This document shows, piece after piece, positions 40,106 to 46,444 of a stretch of DNA of 64,000 nucleotides. Below the pieces are notes generated by a model that made no database searches, was not told the DNA's origin, and saw only the letters and a program-made list of their open reading frames with translations. The stretch's first letter is position 1. Each line of letters begins with the position of its first letter. Location: NCBI RefSeq assembly GCF_014204945.1, contig NZ_JACHMN010000002.1, positions 682,001-746,000 of the forward strand, given 5' to 3'. The position numbers were made by a program, and so were the translations under genes. This stretch comes from Allocatelliglobosispora scoriae. GTDB lineage: Bacteria; Actinomycetota; Actinomycetes; Mycobacteriales; Micromonosporaceae.

Positions 40106-43100
40106 TCAGCCGAAGACCCGCAGCTCGTAGATACGAGCCGCCGCATCGGTCGTCTGGGTCGGCGTGTTGATCGTCAGCCGCACGTAGCGGCCGGAGACGG
40201 CGACGGTGTGGCTGGTGTTGGCCGCGGTGTTGGCGGTGACGCTCGCCGCCGGCGACCAGGTGGTCCCGTCGTTGGAGACCTCGATGGTGTAGGCCCTGGT
40301 GTTGTAGGCGGCCTGCTCACCGCCCGCTTCCGCGTGCGCGACCTCGAAGCGGACGATGTTGCGCGTCGAGCCGAGGTCGACCCGCAGCCAGGCACCGGCG
40401 GCACCGGAGCAGAACTTGTCCGAGTTGCCGCCGCTGACGCTGCCGTTGACCGCCTTCTCCGGCCCCTCCGTCGTGCCGCAGGGGGCGCTGCTGGTGGTGG
40501 GCTGGTTGAGGGCGAGGTTGGACGGTGCCGTGCCGGATCCGTAGACCTCGAACTCGTAGATGCGGGTGGCGGTGTCGGTGGTCTGGGTGGCGGTGGTGGT
40601 GTTGAGGCGGACGTACCGGGCACCCGTCGTGGCGATGCTGTGCGCCGTGGCGCCGACCTCGTTGTTCGTCACGGTCACCGGGGTGGTCCAGGTGCTCCCG
40701 TCGGTGGAGAGCTGGATGTTGAAGGCCCTGGTGTTGAAGGTCGCGCCCTCGTTGCCCGACCCGGCGTGCTTCACCACGAAGCGGTTGACCTGCTGCGTGG
40801 AGCCGAGGTCCACCTGCAGCCAGCCCGGTGCGGCGAGCGAGCAGAACTTGTCGGGGTTGCCGCCGGCGACGCTGCCGTTGACCGCCTTCGCCGGGCCCTC
40901 GTCGGCGGCGCACGCCGCCGAGCCGGTGGCCGGCTTGTTCAGCGCCAGGTTGACCGGTGCCGCGGGCGGGGTGGTGTGGTTGGACGACGGCGGGGTGTCG
41001 CCCGCACCGGTCCCCCAGGACCCGGCGGTGCCGGTCACGGTGTAGTTCAGGGTGGCGCCCTTGGCGATCTCCGCCTGCGACAGCCAGGTCTTGGTGAACC
41101 CGGTGCCGTTCAGCGTCGCGGTGCCGATGTAGCGGTTGGCGTCGCTCACTCCCGGCGCGGCGATGTTGAGCGTGCCGCCCTGCTGGGTGCCGTAGGCGCC
41201 GATCGTGACCTTCGCGGTCGGGAACTGCGGTGTGGTGACGCCGTAGAAGTTGGCGCCGTTCATCAGCGGGTAGAGGCCCAGCGACGAGAAGACGTACCAG
41301 GCCGACATCGTCCCGAGGTCGTCGTTGCCCGTGACGCCGTTGGGCCCGTTGGTGAACAGGGTGTACGCCGCCCGCAGCACCGTCGCCGTCTTGGCGGGCT
41401 GCCCGGTCCACAGGTACGTGTAGGGCGCCAGCAGGTCCGGCTCGTTGTTCGGGTTGTAGGTGGTGAAGCTGTAGTAGTCGTATGCGCCGTTGACCCACTT
41501 GTCCCGGGCGGTGCCCGACGGGTTGGTCAGCAGGTCGCTGTAGGCGAAGAACTGGTCCAGCCGGGTGTTCGCCGCCGCCTTGCCCCCGAGCAGGCTCACC
41601 AGCCCGTCCGGGTCCTGCGGCACGAGCCACTGGTACTGGTAGGCCCCGGCCTCGTGGAACTTGTGCCCGCCGTCGGTCGGCGCGTAGGGGGCGGCCCAGG
41701 TGCCGTTGGCGTTGCGGGGCCGGAAGAACCCGATCGACGGGTCGAAGATGTTGCGGTAGTTCTGCCCGCGCGCGTTGAGCAGGTCCGCGTCGGCGGTGTA
41801 GCCCAGCGCCCGCGCCATGATCGCCAGTGCCGAGTCGGCCGCCGCGTACTCCAGGGTCGCCGACGCCGGGTACTGGCAGTCGTTGTCGAACGACGCGGTC
41901 GGGGTGCAGGTCACCCCGGTCGGGAGGTAGCCGATCGTCGTGTAGTACGGGTTGCCGTTGCGGGCGTTGAGACCGGTGGCGGCGGGCGGCGTACCCAGCG
42001 CGTTCTTGCGCAGCGCGGTGTAGAACTGCTGCTCGTAGCCGTTGAGCAGCCCGCGGGCCCACAGGTCGACCAGGAACGGGGTGACCGGGTCGCCGGTCAT
42101 CGTGTTGGTCTCGGTGTTCATCATCGACCAGCGGGGTAGCCAGCCGAGCTCCCGGTCGACGGCGAGCAGCGACAACGCCGAGTCCCGGGCCACCTGGGGC
42201 TCCAGCAGCGCGACGAGCTGGTTCTGCGCTCGATAGGTGTCCCAGAGTGAGAAGGTCTGGTAGGGCGTGTAGCCCGACGCCGTCCGGACCACGTTGTCGA
42301 AGCCCCGGTAGGAGCCGTCCACGTCGCCGGCGAGGTTGGGGTGCAGCAGCGAGTGGTAGAGCGAGGTGTAGAAGGCGACCTGGCGGTCGGCGGTGCCGCC
42401 GTCGACCTCGGCCTTGTGCAGCTTCGCGTTCCAGGTGTCGCGGGCGGCGTTGCGGACGGTGTCGAAGTTGAACCCCGCCGCGCTCGTCTCGGACGTGAGG
42501 TTGTTGCGCGCCCCGGCGAGCCCGGTGTAGGAAAGGCCCAGCTTCACGGTGACGACGCGGTCGGTGCTGGTGTCGAATCGTACCCAGCCGCCGGTCGCGC
42601 CGGTGCCGCTCGACGTCCGGCTGCCGCCGGTGAAGGTGCCCCCGGACCAGGTGCCGAAGGAGGCGAACGCGCGGCTGAACTTCGCCGAGAAGTAGACGGT
42701 GTGCGCGGGCGAGGTGTTGCAGAAGCCGCTGGAGGTCACCGACCCTTCGACGGTGTCGCTGTTGACGATGGAGATCGACGAGGAGACGGCATTGCCGTTG
42801 TCGCCCTTGACCTCGGCGGTGTTGAACAGGATGTTCGCCTGGGTGCTGGCCGGGAAGGTGTGGCGCTGCCAACCGGTCCGCAGGGTCGCGGTCAGCTCGG
42901 TGGTGACGCCGTTGGGCATCGCGACCCGGTAGAACCCGGCGCTCGCCTGCTCCTGCGCGTGGTTGAGCGCCTGGCCGTAGGAGTTGGGGTCGCTGGAGTT
43001 GACCGCGCCGATCGTCGGCATCAGCGGGATGTCGGTGCCGGAGGCGCAGCCGACCCCGGAGAGGTGGGTCTGGGAGAAGCCCCAGATCTTCGGCCGGTCG

Positions 43101-43327
43101 TAGTTGTAGCCGGTGCCGTGACCGGTGTCGGGGCTGACCTGCACCATGCCGAAGGGCAGGGCCGCGCCCGGGAAGGTGTTGCCTTCCTTCTGGGTGCCGA
43201 TCAGAGGGTTGACCAATGTGGTCAGGTCGGCCGGGACGGCGGCCTGGGCGGGTGATCCGGGTACGCCGACGACCACCATGGACGCGGTGACGGCGAAACC
43301 CAGCACCACCCGCAATGACCTGGACAT
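40106..43327 (-). CDS. GH92 alpha-mannosidase with two F5/8 C (CBM32-like) modules
   Basis: A 1073-residue exported enzyme. A signal peptide (VVLGFAVTASMVVVGVPGSPAQA) precedes a GH92 catalytic region at about 35-760: VNPLIGTQKEGNTFPGAALPFGMVQVSPDT, THLSGVGC, FYTSLYHSLLHPNL, FSLWDTYRAQNQL, GNDDLGTMSAWYVFSSLGLYP. Two discoidin-like modules follow, each starting NLALN(K/Q)P and ending YEFEVYG or YELRVFG. GH92 enzymes are calcium-dependent exo-alpha-mannosidases (mostly alpha-1,2) acting on mannan or high-mannose glycans outside the cell. ATG 43327 is preceded by GGGAG at good spacing, so a GTG at 43339 is less likely. Confidence 0.93.
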   Translation of the reverse strand: MSRSLRVVLGFAVTASMVVVGVPGSPAQAAVPADLTTLVNPLIGTQKEGNTFPGAALPFGMVQVSPDTGHGTGYNYDRPKIWGFSQTHLSGVGCASGTDIPLMPTIGAVNSSDPNSYGQALNHAQEQASAGFYRVAMPNGVTTELTATLRTGWQRHTFPASTQANILFNTAEVKGDNGNAVSSSISIVNSDTVEGSVTSSGFCNTSPAHTVYFSAKFSRAFASFGTWSGGTFTGGSRTSSGTGATGGWVRFDTSTDRVVTVKLGLSYTGLAGARNNLTSETSAAGFNFDTVRNAARDTWNAKLHKAEVDGGTADRQVAFYTSLYHSLLHPNLAGDVDGSYRGFDNVVRTASGYTPYQTFSLWDTYRAQNQLVALLEPQVARDSALSLLAVDRELGWLPRWSMMNTETNTMTGDPVTPFLVDLWARGLLNGYEQQFYTALRKNALGTPPAATGLNARNGNPYYTTIGYLPTGVTCTPTASFDNDCQYPASATLEYAAADSALAIMARALGYTADADLLNARGQNYRNIFDPSIGFFRPRNANGTWAAPYAPTDGGHKFHEAGAYQYQWLVPQDPDGLVSLLGGKAAANTRLDQFFAYSDLLTNPSGTARDKWVNGAYDYYSFTTYNPNNEPDLLAPYTYLWTGQPAKTATVLRAAYTLFTNGPNGVTGNDDLGTMSAWYVFSSLGLYPLMNGANFYGVTTPQFPTAKVTIGAYGTQQGGTLNIAAPGVSDANRYIGTATLNGTGFTKTWLSQAEIAKGATLNYTVTGTAGSWGTGAGDTPPSSNHTTPPAAPVNLALNKPATGSAACAADEGPAKAVNGSVAGGNPDKFCSLAAPGWLQVDLGSTQQVNRFVVKHAGSGNEGATFNTRAFNIQLSTDGSTWTTPVTVTNNEVGATAHSIATTGARYVRLNTTTATQTTDTATRIYEFEVYGSGTAPSNLALNQPTTSSAPCGTTEGPEKAVNGSVSGGNSDKFCSGAAGAWLRVDLGSTRNIVRFEVAHAEAGGEQAAYNTRAYTIEVSNDGTTWSPAASVTANTAANTSHTVAVSGRYVRLTINTPTQTTDAAARIYELRVFG

Positions 43328-43359
43328 TCGTGCTCCCACGGCAACTCCTTCGCTCAGAA

Positions 43360-43371
43360 GACAACGTTGTC
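43360..43371. promoter_or_regulatory. LacI-type operator upstream of the first GH92 gene
   Basis: A perfect 12-base palindrome GACAACGTTGTC lies 33 bases before the start codon. The AACGTT core with a central CG is typical of LacI-family operators in actinobacterial sugar genes. No LacI regulator is encoded in the window. Confidence 0.6.
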
Positions 43372-43434
43372 ATGTTTCGCTGAAGTTTCGAGTCCATCGA
43401 TGCACTTGTCAAGTCCAGTCCCGCGGTAGCCCCT

Positions 43435-43559
43435 GTCACGTTTTGCAGCAAGCGCTGGCACGAGGAGTGAAGGAGCGCAGCGACTGAGCCCCGCAGGACG
43501 TGCCAGAAACGCCGTGGCCTCGCTTCGCGATTTGGCCACGCTTTGCTGCAAAACGTGAC
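43435..43559. repeat. Branched inverted-repeat element between the GH92 genes
   Basis: Perfect 17-base terminal arms (GTCACGTTTTGCAGCAA at 43435-43451, inverted at 43543-43559) enclose two internal hairpins: CTGGCAC/GTGCCAG (43455-43461 with 43500-43506) and CGTGGCC/GGCCACG (43513-43519 with 43534-43540). Folded, it gives a three-way junction of 125 bases. There is no ORF. It could be a mobile miniature element or a structured RNA. Confidence 0.75.
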
Positions 43560-43567
43560 GGCAGACG

Positions 43568-43607
43568 TGACGCCGGGCGCTCCCATCAGCGAGAGCGCCC
43601 GGCGTCA
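43568..43607 (-). terminator. Terminator of the second GH92 gene
   Basis: Perfect 15-base arms TGACGCCGGGCGCTC (43568-43582) and GAGCGCCCGGCGTCA (43593-43607) around 10 bases, 11 bases after the stop codon on the minus strand. Confidence 0.8.
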
Positions 43608-43618
43608 GAGGGTGCGCG

Positions 43619-46444
43619 TCAGGCGTACACCTCGACCTCGTAGATCCGAGCGGCACCACCGGTGCCCTGCTCGGCGGTGATCACGTTGAGCCGCACGTAG
43701 CGCGTGCTCGCCGTGAGCGTGTGCGTCGTGACGCTCGCGGTGTTGCCGCGGGCCTGGACCACCGTGGTCCAGTTCGTCCCGTCGGTGGAGACCTGCAGGT
43801 CGAAGTCGCGGGTGTTCCAGCTCGTCGACTCACCGCCCGCACCGGCGTGCCGGACGGTGACCGTCTTGATCGCCGTCGTGGCGCCGAGGTCGACCCGCCA
43901 CCACTTGCTCGCGCCGGTGGAGCACCACTTGTCGCTGGTGCCGCCGTTGACCGTGCCGTTGACCGCCTTCGCCGACGACTCGTTGGTGTTGCAGTTGGAG
44001 TCCGAGGTCGTCGGCTTGTTGAGCGCGAGGTTCGTGGCGGCGGGCGCGCCGTTGAACGACGGCGGCGCGTCGGCTGCCGCCGAGCCCCAGCCGGTGTTCG
44101 CCGTCGTGCCGAGCGTGAAGTCGACGGTGCCGCCGCCGGTGACGAAGGACTCCGGCAGCCAGGCCTTGGTGCTGGTGGCGCCGTTGACCTTCAGGCTCTG
44201 CACATAGGGCGAGTTCGTCGCCGCGCCGACGCCGTTGATGGTGAGGTTCTGGCCGCTGGACCGGTGGACCACCGCCGAGGTGAACAGCGGGCTGCCCAGC
44301 AGCAGCTCGGCCCGGCCCGGGGTGAGCGGGTAGACACCGAGCGCCGCCCAGACGTACCAGGCCGACATGGCGCCCAGGTCGTCCTGGCCGGGGATGCCGC
44401 CGGTCCCCGAGTTCCACAGCGTGTTGACGACCTGCCGGACCGTCTGCTGCGTCTTGTACGGCTGCCCGGCGAAGTTGTAGAGCCACGGCACGCCGATCGA
44501 CGGTTCGTTGGCGAGGTCGGACTTCGTGCCGCCCCCGCCGGACAGGGACCAGGAGCCGTCGGAGTTGTGGAAGAACGAGTCCAACCGGCTCACCGCCGAC
44601 GCGTTGCCGCCCATCGCGTCGAAGAGCCCGCGCGCGTTGAACGGGATCATCCACGTGTACTGCGCGGAGCTGCCCTCGGCGAAGCCGCTGTCGCCGGCCG
44701 GGTCACCGGCGGGCCAGGAGCCGTCGGAGTTGCGGTCCTGGATGTAGAGGCGGGTCGGGTGGAAAACGTTGCGCCAATTCTGCGCCCGCTGCAGGAACGT
44801 GCTCGCCGCACCGGTGTTGCCCAGGCGCTGCGCGAGCTGCGACAGGGCGAAGTCGGCCGACACGTCCTCCAGGGTCTCCCCCGCACCGCCCCAGGCGTTG
44901 CCGTTGGTCGGCACATACCCCTTCGACAGGTACTGATCGAGAGAGGGGCGTTCGCCGACGACCATCACGTTCCAGCCGTTGCGGCTCAGGTCGTCGGCGG
45001 TGACCGTCGTCGCGGCATTGAGCATCGAGGTCAGCGCCGCCGAGGAGTTGAAAGCGGTGCCGCCGAATGCGTAGATGCTCGGCAGCGCGGCGTGGGCCGG
45101 GTCGCCGGTCATCACGTGGGTGCCGCCCTGGTTGTGTGTCCAGCGGTCCCAGACGCCGTTGTTCTGGTTGGCCTGGTTGAGCAGCGACTGCGCGATGTCC
45201 GACCCGATGTCCGGACGCAGCAGCGTGACGAGCTGCAGCTGGCTGCGGTAGACGTCCCAGCCGGAGAAGTTGGCGTACTGCGCGGACTGGCCCGACGAGA
45301 CCTGGTGCACCGCCTGGTCCATGCCCGTGTACTGCCCGTTGACGTCGCTGAAGACGTTGGGGTGCAGCAGCGAGTGGTAGAGCGCGGTGTAGAAGGTGGT
45401 GTTCTGCGCCGCGGTGCCGCCGCTGATCTCGATCCGGTTCAGCGCCGCGTTCCAGGCGTCCTTGGCCCGGGTACGCATCGTGTCGAAGCTCGTTCCCGCC
45501 GGGTTCTCGGAGGTCAGGTTGGCCTGGGCGTTGGCCGCGCTGACATAGGAGATGCCGACCCGGGCGGTGACGGTCGTGCCGCCGCTGGTGTCGAAGGTGA
45601 CGTACCCGCCCGACCCCTGGCCGCGGACCGGCCAGCCGTCGGTGCCGTAGGTCGTGCCGCCGCTCGACGAGGTGCTGCCGCCGGTGACCGTACCGTTCTT
45701 CCAGGTGCCGGTGCTCGTGAACGCCTTGTCGAAGACCGCGTGGAAGTAGAGCGTGTAGTAGCTGCGGCGGCCGATCTGGTTGATGTAGCCGCAGAAGTTG
45801 CCGCTCGTCACCGAGCCGCTGATGGTGCGGTTGGCCGCGTCGATCGTGGTCGTCGCCGCGCTGCTGCCGACCTCCGAGTTGGAGGTGCGCACCAGCATCG
45901 TCGCCGCCTGGCCGGTCGGGTAGGTGAACCGGCCCGAGCCCGTCCGGGTCGAGGCGGTGAGCTCGACGTTGACCCCGGAGGCGAGGCCGACGCGGTAGTA
46001 GCCCGCCGTTGCGGTCTCGTTGGCGTGGGAGAAGTTGCTGGCGTAGGTCGCGTCCGTCGTGTCCGAGGTCGGCGAGGAGGTGACGGTGCCGGGGATCGGC
46101 AGGAAGGGCACGTCGCCGGAGGCGCCGGCGCAGCCCGTACCCGACAGGTGGGTGAGGCTGAAGCCTCTGATCCTGGCCGCGTCATAGGCGTAACCACCCG
46201 GCTCGGGCGTGCGGGCCTGGTCCCCGCGGGTGTTCTCCGGGCTCCACGCGACCATGCCGAAGGGGGCGACGGCACCCGGGAAGGTCTCGCCGCTGTTGCT
46301 GGAGCCGATCAGGGTGTTGACGGTCGAGGCGGGGTCCGGCACGGCCGCGGCGGCCGGGTCGGCCGCGACGAGCCCGGTCGTGAGGACGAGCAGGAGGCCG
46401 AGGGCGGCGGGCAGGCCGCGGGCCGATGGTCGGGACATGGGCAT
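43619..46444 (-). CDS. GH92 alpha-mannosidase with one F5/8 C (CBM32-like) module
   Basis: A 941-residue exported enzyme, paralogous to its neighbour. Signal peptide (LPAALGLLLVLTTGLVAADPAAA); GH92 region at about 35-790 with VNTLIGSSNSGETFPGAVAPFGMVAWSPEN, LTHLSGTGCAG, FYTALYHSLLHPNVF, FSGWDVYRSQLQL and GQDDLGAMSAWYVWAALGVYPLTPG; then one C-terminal discoidin-like module (NLALNKPTTSDS to YEVEVYA). The pair probably acts on different linkages of the same mannan. It is divergent from a helix-turn-helix regulator. ATG 46444 is used; ATG 46438 is also possible. Confidence 0.93.
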   Translation of the reverse strand: MPMSRPSARGLPAALGLLLVLTTGLVAADPAAAAVPDPASTVNTLIGSSNSGETFPGAVAPFGMVAWSPENTRGDQARTPEPGGYAYDAARIRGFSLTHLSGTGCAGASGDVPFLPIPGTVTSSPTSDTTDATYASNFSHANETATAGYYRVGLASGVNVELTASTRTGSGRFTYPTGQAATMLVRTSNSEVGSSAATTTIDAANRTISGSVTSGNFCGYINQIGRRSYYTLYFHAVFDKAFTSTGTWKNGTVTGGSTSSSGGTTYGTDGWPVRGQGSGGYVTFDTSGGTTVTARVGISYVSAANAQANLTSENPAGTSFDTMRTRAKDAWNAALNRIEISGGTAAQNTTFYTALYHSLLHPNVFSDVNGQYTGMDQAVHQVSSGQSAQYANFSGWDVYRSQLQLVTLLRPDIGSDIAQSLLNQANQNNGVWDRWTHNQGGTHVMTGDPAHAALPSIYAFGGTAFNSSAALTSMLNAATTVTADDLSRNGWNVMVVGERPSLDQYLSKGYVPTNGNAWGGAGETLEDVSADFALSQLAQRLGNTGAASTFLQRAQNWRNVFHPTRLYIQDRNSDGSWPAGDPAGDSGFAEGSSAQYTWMIPFNARGLFDAMGGNASAVSRLDSFFHNSDGSWSLSGGGGTKSDLANEPSIGVPWLYNFAGQPYKTQQTVRQVVNTLWNSGTGGIPGQDDLGAMSAWYVWAALGVYPLTPGRAELLLGSPLFTSAVVHRSSGQNLTINGVGAATNSPYVQSLKVNGATSTKAWLPESFVTGGGTVDFTLGTTANTGWGSAAADAPPSFNGAPAATNLALNKPTTSDSNCNTNESSAKAVNGTVNGGTSDKWCSTGASKWWRVDLGATTAIKTVTVRHAGAGGESTSWNTRDFDLQVSTDGTNWTTVVQARGNTASVTTHTLTASTRYVRLNVITAEQGTGGAARIYEVEVYA

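Follow-up and report, generated by a model that had tools for sequence, protein, structure and literature searches.

The locus and its composition

The window, meaning the whole 64,000-nt stretch of DNA analysed here, contains a 125-nt element (43435-43559) located between two GH92 genes, both of which are on the minus strand and carry Glyco_hydro_92 and 92N domains. The features of the locus, named after the two repeat families (A and B) into which the element was resolved, are as follows.

40106-43339, minus strand: GH92 gene 1, with F5/8 type C domains (domain matches)
43435-43451, no strand assigned: left outer arm of the family A palindrome, 17 nt, shared without change by most of the 22 other copies of A
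43452-43512, plus strand: inserted family B unit with its edges, 61 nt, 81-91% identical to B copies, whose tandem period elsewhere is mostly 60-63 nt
43455-43506, plus strand: 52-nt core of B, scored at 74 bits by model R1; its inverted arms are CTGGCACG/CGTGCCAG
43475-43481, plus strand: GCGCAGC, the GCGNAGC mini-hairpin of B; N varies and its neighbours are nearly fixed in 33 B units
43513-43559, no strand assigned: remainder of family A, 47 nt, comprising the rest of the left arm, the TCGC/GCGA triloop apex, a 3-nt bulge and the whole right arm, 98% identical to C2:3174510-3174556
43568-43607, no strand assigned: 15-bp hairpin, which likely terminates transcription of GH92 gene 2 (gene end at 43619)
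43619-46444, minus strand: GH92 gene 2 (domain matches)

An earlier note on this DNA had described the element as a predicted three-way junction, with perfect 17-base terminal repeats enclosing two hairpins between paralogous GH92 genes and next to a distinct terminator, and had proposed a structured RNA or a miniature mobile element. The anatomical part of this description was confirmed. The arms at 43435-43451 and 43543-43559 are complementary at 17 of 17 positions and enclose two hairpins, and the adjoining 15-bp hairpin is separate from the element, 8 nt away. The three-way junction was predicted on both strands, with stabilities well beyond those of shuffled sequence (as RNA on the plus strand, -67.8 kcal/mol, z -6.18; as DNA on the minus strand, -44.6, z -6.82; 0/200 shuffles equal in each case). 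A comparison of positions 43300-43700 with Rfam yielded four matches only, all far under the gathering scores. Separately, a perfect 12-nt palindrome, GACAACGTTGTC, was observed at 43360-43371 upstream of the GH92 gene, with an identical string upstream of the orthologue at locus L052; we take this palindrome to resemble a LacI-type operator.

When the 125-nt sequence was used to query its own genome (9.15 Mb, four contigs), one of the 80 listed matches, the window itself, spanned positions 1-125 of the query, and the other listed matches covered parts of its left or right half only; the best 40 of 235 candidates were scored, so that the match numbers are lower bounds. Copies of A without B and copies of B without A are both present in the genome. 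In the window, the first 17 nt and the last 47 nt of A flank one B unit, giving a net gain of 59 nt over the 66-nt A; two bases of A ('AG') were replaced or lost at the insertion, and the edges of B do not restore A exactly. The B unit lies on the plus strand, opposite to both GH92 genes. The 125-nt element is thus one small spreading repeat (B) that landed inside another, dispersed hairpin repeat (A), and not one designed RNA; its three-way junction arose by chance, through nesting. The junction is apparent because A, split by B, has arms that enclose both the B hairpin and its own apex: the 'two hairpins' are the hairpin of B and the apex of A, and the 'terminal repeats' are the outer arms of A.

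The perfect ends and the very stable fold on both strands would also be expected of one functional RNA with a three-way junction, or of one miniature transposon. However, there is one full-length copy only among the matches listed, whereas both halves were found independently at many places, making such a single element highly improbable. The earlier suggestion of a structured and repeated or mobile element therefore stands for the components A and B but not for the 125-nt whole, of which one copy is known. Likewise, compensatory changes were found within A and within B, but covariation of the three-way junction was not seen because no second junction was found. The account that we favour, with a probability of roughly 0.9, is that a mobile B unit of ~60 nt inserted once into a resident A palindrome, A being a dispersed gene-end hairpin and B a spreading unit that sits at gene junctions or in frame within genes. 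According to this nesting account, B would have entered the left arm of the 66-nt palindrome and split it.

Among the 24 relatives' loci examined, no gene-2 orthologue was found beside the gene-1 homologue; two of these loci, L064 and L065, have a distant GH92 gene (28-31% identity, opposite orientation). The host was the sole genome of its genus in the comparison set. Since synteny of the GH92 pair is not kept in relatives, it is the split of A and the other copies, rather than a local empty site, that support the order 'A first, then B'. What looked like a novel RNA proved to be two nested repeat families, a caution that nesting can produce strongly folding sequences with perfect repeats at their ends.

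Family A at gene ends

Reading of the 22 other copies defined family A as a 66-nt near-perfect palindrome with a 26-bp stem, TCGC/GCGA, a triloop and a 3-nt bulge. According to a home-made ORF caller, all 22 copies were outside called ORFs, 18 had a called stop codon no more than 50 nt away (the remaining four did not) and 11 were between convergent genes. In shuffle tests that, like those for B below, ignore kinship among copies, the stem had four pairs changed on both sides (shuffled mean 0.9; 1/500 shuffles as high) and seven doubly changed cells (0/500 shuffles). Control stems slid by -2 and -3 gave four and two double-change pairs, respectively, with only 37-44% paired cells compared with 95.6% for the real stem.

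By DNA query, A was detected in one of 150 genomes of the host's bacterial family, its own genome. With the structure model R2, looser matches appeared in 33 of the 299 other genomes, most of them from genus g4; the best score there was 65 bits, versus 98 in the window's genome. Seven of the nine A-like loci that were read have the apical AAAG(A/C)GTGGCC in common and differ in their outer arms; in the other two, the palindrome finder chose something else. The palindromes of genus g4 (L148-L155), which combine this apex with other outer arms and reach up to 33 pairs (L154), may be part of a broader group of long hairpins. An exact 20-mer of A also occurred in three Oscillospiraceae MAGs and in no actinobacteria, in a search from which records of the window's own genome were possibly excluded; this was taken as chance, as ~0.5 match was expected in 257 Gb over both strands.

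Its position at gene ends suggests that A is most likely a transcript-end hairpin that has spread by copying. As dispersed intergenic palindromes near gene ends, the copies of A also resemble REP, BIME and REPIN elements. Instead of a terminator hairpin that was copied, A could be an element of the REP/BIME type, mobilised by a Y1 transposase of the REP-associated kind. However, A is a single near-perfect hairpin, and its length of 66 nt lies above the 20-40 bp that PMC3733652 states for REPs. Furthermore, the Y1_Tnp domain (PF01797; TnpA-REP) had 0 matches in this genome, whereas a control search was positive in 5 of 14 genomes, and a Y1 transposase was thus rejected as the mover in this genome. 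A REP-type origin therefore appears unlikely, and the copied transcript-end hairpin is retained for A.

Family B in genes, at gene junctions and as a hairpin

Family B has a 52-nt core that repeats mostly every 60-63 nt in arrays. The unit set of this genome comprised 33 units, 25 of them distinct, from 13 loci and the window; four of the 17 B loci fetched (L038, L040, L042 and L047) had no core match and are absent from the unit tables. Besides the A palindrome, copies in this genome lie inside ORFs, and their RTGA heads have been lost. In the frame table, which excludes L032, L035 and L036, all seven intragenic places carry B in the same strand and frame, reading ALARGVxERS or a near form. 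B forms a 21-residue in-frame insert in a GH3 gene and a 19-residue insert in a second gene, each absent in 11 of 11 orthologues. In an AXE1 esterase, B forms an array of three units that is absent in all seven readable orthologues of the 11 fetched (four were unreadable). These empty orthologous sites show the insertion of B into genes. The empty sites of L033 and L037 were inspected for duplication of the target, and none was clearly visible. B spreads as small units that commonly stand head to tail in arrays; in this genome, a derived subfamily is also present within genes, in a single fixed frame, and each unit adds 19-21 residues.

Two further observations concern individual loci. Five-unit arrays of near-identical copies, with periods of 61 and 63 nt, occur at L036 and L035 and are candidate variable-number typing loci. 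At L043, two B units are apparently in frame within a SARP-like regulator domain, which was recognised by eye.

Many copies of B are in tandem arrays, and neither a transposase nor a target duplication was identified, which would favour B as an immobile motif, coding or spacer, that was inherited vertically and expanded by slippage, its genic copies being ordinary indels. This explanation is difficult to reconcile with the occurrence of single, closely similar units both within an A palindrome and in genes that are unrelated to one another, with the shared orientation and frame of the genic units, and with the empty sites in 11 of 11 orthologues for each of two genes. We consider it quite improbable and interpret B as a mobile unit.

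Of 150 genomes from 44 genera of the host's bacterial family, the DNA query detected B in 25 (11 genera) and the covariance model R1 in 63 (20 genera); at most 6 to 40 places were scored per genome, and copy counts are lower bounds. The relatives' set consisted of 17 loci with a clear core (L085-L101), L102-L108 being without a core match at the cut-off. At 14 of these 17 loci, RTGA stands at the head of the unit and the upstream open frame runs into it, and at 13 the unit starts at the stop codon of the upstream gene according to the ORF caller; the TGA head is missing at L085, L088 and L099. A mini-ORF of exactly 22 codons ending in a second RTGA was found at 11 of the 17 loci; it stays open at L086 and L092 and stops after eight codons at L089. 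The gene downstream of B is co-oriented in all 17 cases. At these gene junctions, the start and stop of the mini-ORF overlap the neighbouring stop and start (RTGA). The mini-ORF thereby recreates the RTGA overlap, so that translation of the downstream gene would stay coupled. B is a member of a widespread family whose very small elements enter bacterial genes and leave them unbroken. Several genomes contain shortened B-like matches, 43-48 nt long and likewise in tandem (G035, G022, G052, G106 and others), which suggests a deleted B subfamily in other genera.

The sense strand of B folds into a GNA-loop hairpin with G.A pairs and with covarying pairs beside them. Its centre is GCGNAGC, in which N was A in 9, C in 8, G in 6 and T in 10 of the 33 units, with nearly fixed neighbours. 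In alignment A1, which holds 34 of 44 distinct units, 92.4% of cells were paired versus 85.6% in shuffled alignments, and 14 cells were doubly changed versus 5.4 (0/500 for both; 34 rows). A slide of +1 gave 15 doubly changed cells against 14 for the real structure, yet only 55.5% of cells were paired. Across the 25 distinct units, pair 17-29 was C-G in 14, G-C in 9 and G-G in 2 (i.e., C-G or G-C in 23), and pair 16-30 was G-C in 5, C-G in 5, A-U in 2, G-U in 4 and G-G in 9. When one unit per place was used, pair 17-29 had a p value of 0.003, and pair 16-30 had p values of 0.12 counting wobble and 0.019 for Watson-Crick pairs only. Positions 18-28, 19-27, 14-32 and 15-31 were G.A or A.G almost without exception, which we take to fit tandem sheared pairs; CGAG motifs form sheared tandem G.A pairing. 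The N of GCGNAGC is a synonymous site in the genic frame of B. Coding alone fails to explain its freedom, because seven other four-fold third positions of this frame never vary among the 25 distinct units, and coding constraint was excluded as the reason. The GNA-capped hairpin, kept under covariation, would be a recognition or protection element for movement or mRNA function.

Relation to known elements

Literature searches, with subscription journals mostly outside their scope, returned no paper containing sequence strings of B and listed no such element for this bacterial family. As described in the available portion of one source (PMC4686876), GNA loops with at least two G-C pairs are extraordinarily stable DNA mini-hairpins, and the d(GCGNAGC) mini-hairpins, in which N is any base, correspond to the GCGNAGC centre of B. 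Those mini-hairpins are, however, short DNA oligonucleotides, whereas B is a genomic repeat.

MIRUs are characterised in PMC12548453 as apparently mobile elements whose insertion sites are start codons and whose internal ORF is coupled, with a spacing of -4 nt, to the gene that follows. B of relatives is comparable in layout: it lies at junctions of co-oriented genes and has an internal 22-codon ORF with a 4-nt overlap. The unit begins at the upstream stop in relatives but not in the window's own copy, and the internal ORF overlaps the next start by 4 nt at 11 of the 17 relative loci. Unlike MIRUs, B in the present genome is also located inside ORFs and an A palindrome, where the RTGA heads are lost.

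For Rickettsia palindromic elements (RPEs), the accessible text of PMC10969869 gives a length of about 150 bp and 44 integrations in R. conorii. Like these elements in layout, B is a small palindromic repeat in frame in protein-coding genes; it was in frame in unrelated genes at each of the seven genic places, with empty sites at three genes. In contrast to RPEs, B measures ~60 nt, carries a hairpin with a GNA cap, occurs in genomes of high GC content and takes a MIRU-like form in relatives.

In kind, B resembles MIRUs and RPEs and appears to be a new family of such elements. We tentatively go further, at somewhat less than even odds, and propose B as a mobile element of high-GC bacteria, family-wide in its distribution and so far undescribed, that may move via a folded strand capped by GCGNAGC with tandem G.A pairs. 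Its frame and RTGA ends might be tuned to sit between or inside genes without stopping translation, with lineages differing between MIRU-like junctions and RPE-like genic sites. B makes testable how enzyme-less tiny elements spread in dense genomes yet preserve translation, and whether the GNA mini-hairpin is the signal. With its clear empty sites, B spans MIRU-like insertion at junctions and RPE-like insertion within genes, and, if the proposal is true, it links two element types that have so far been treated apart.
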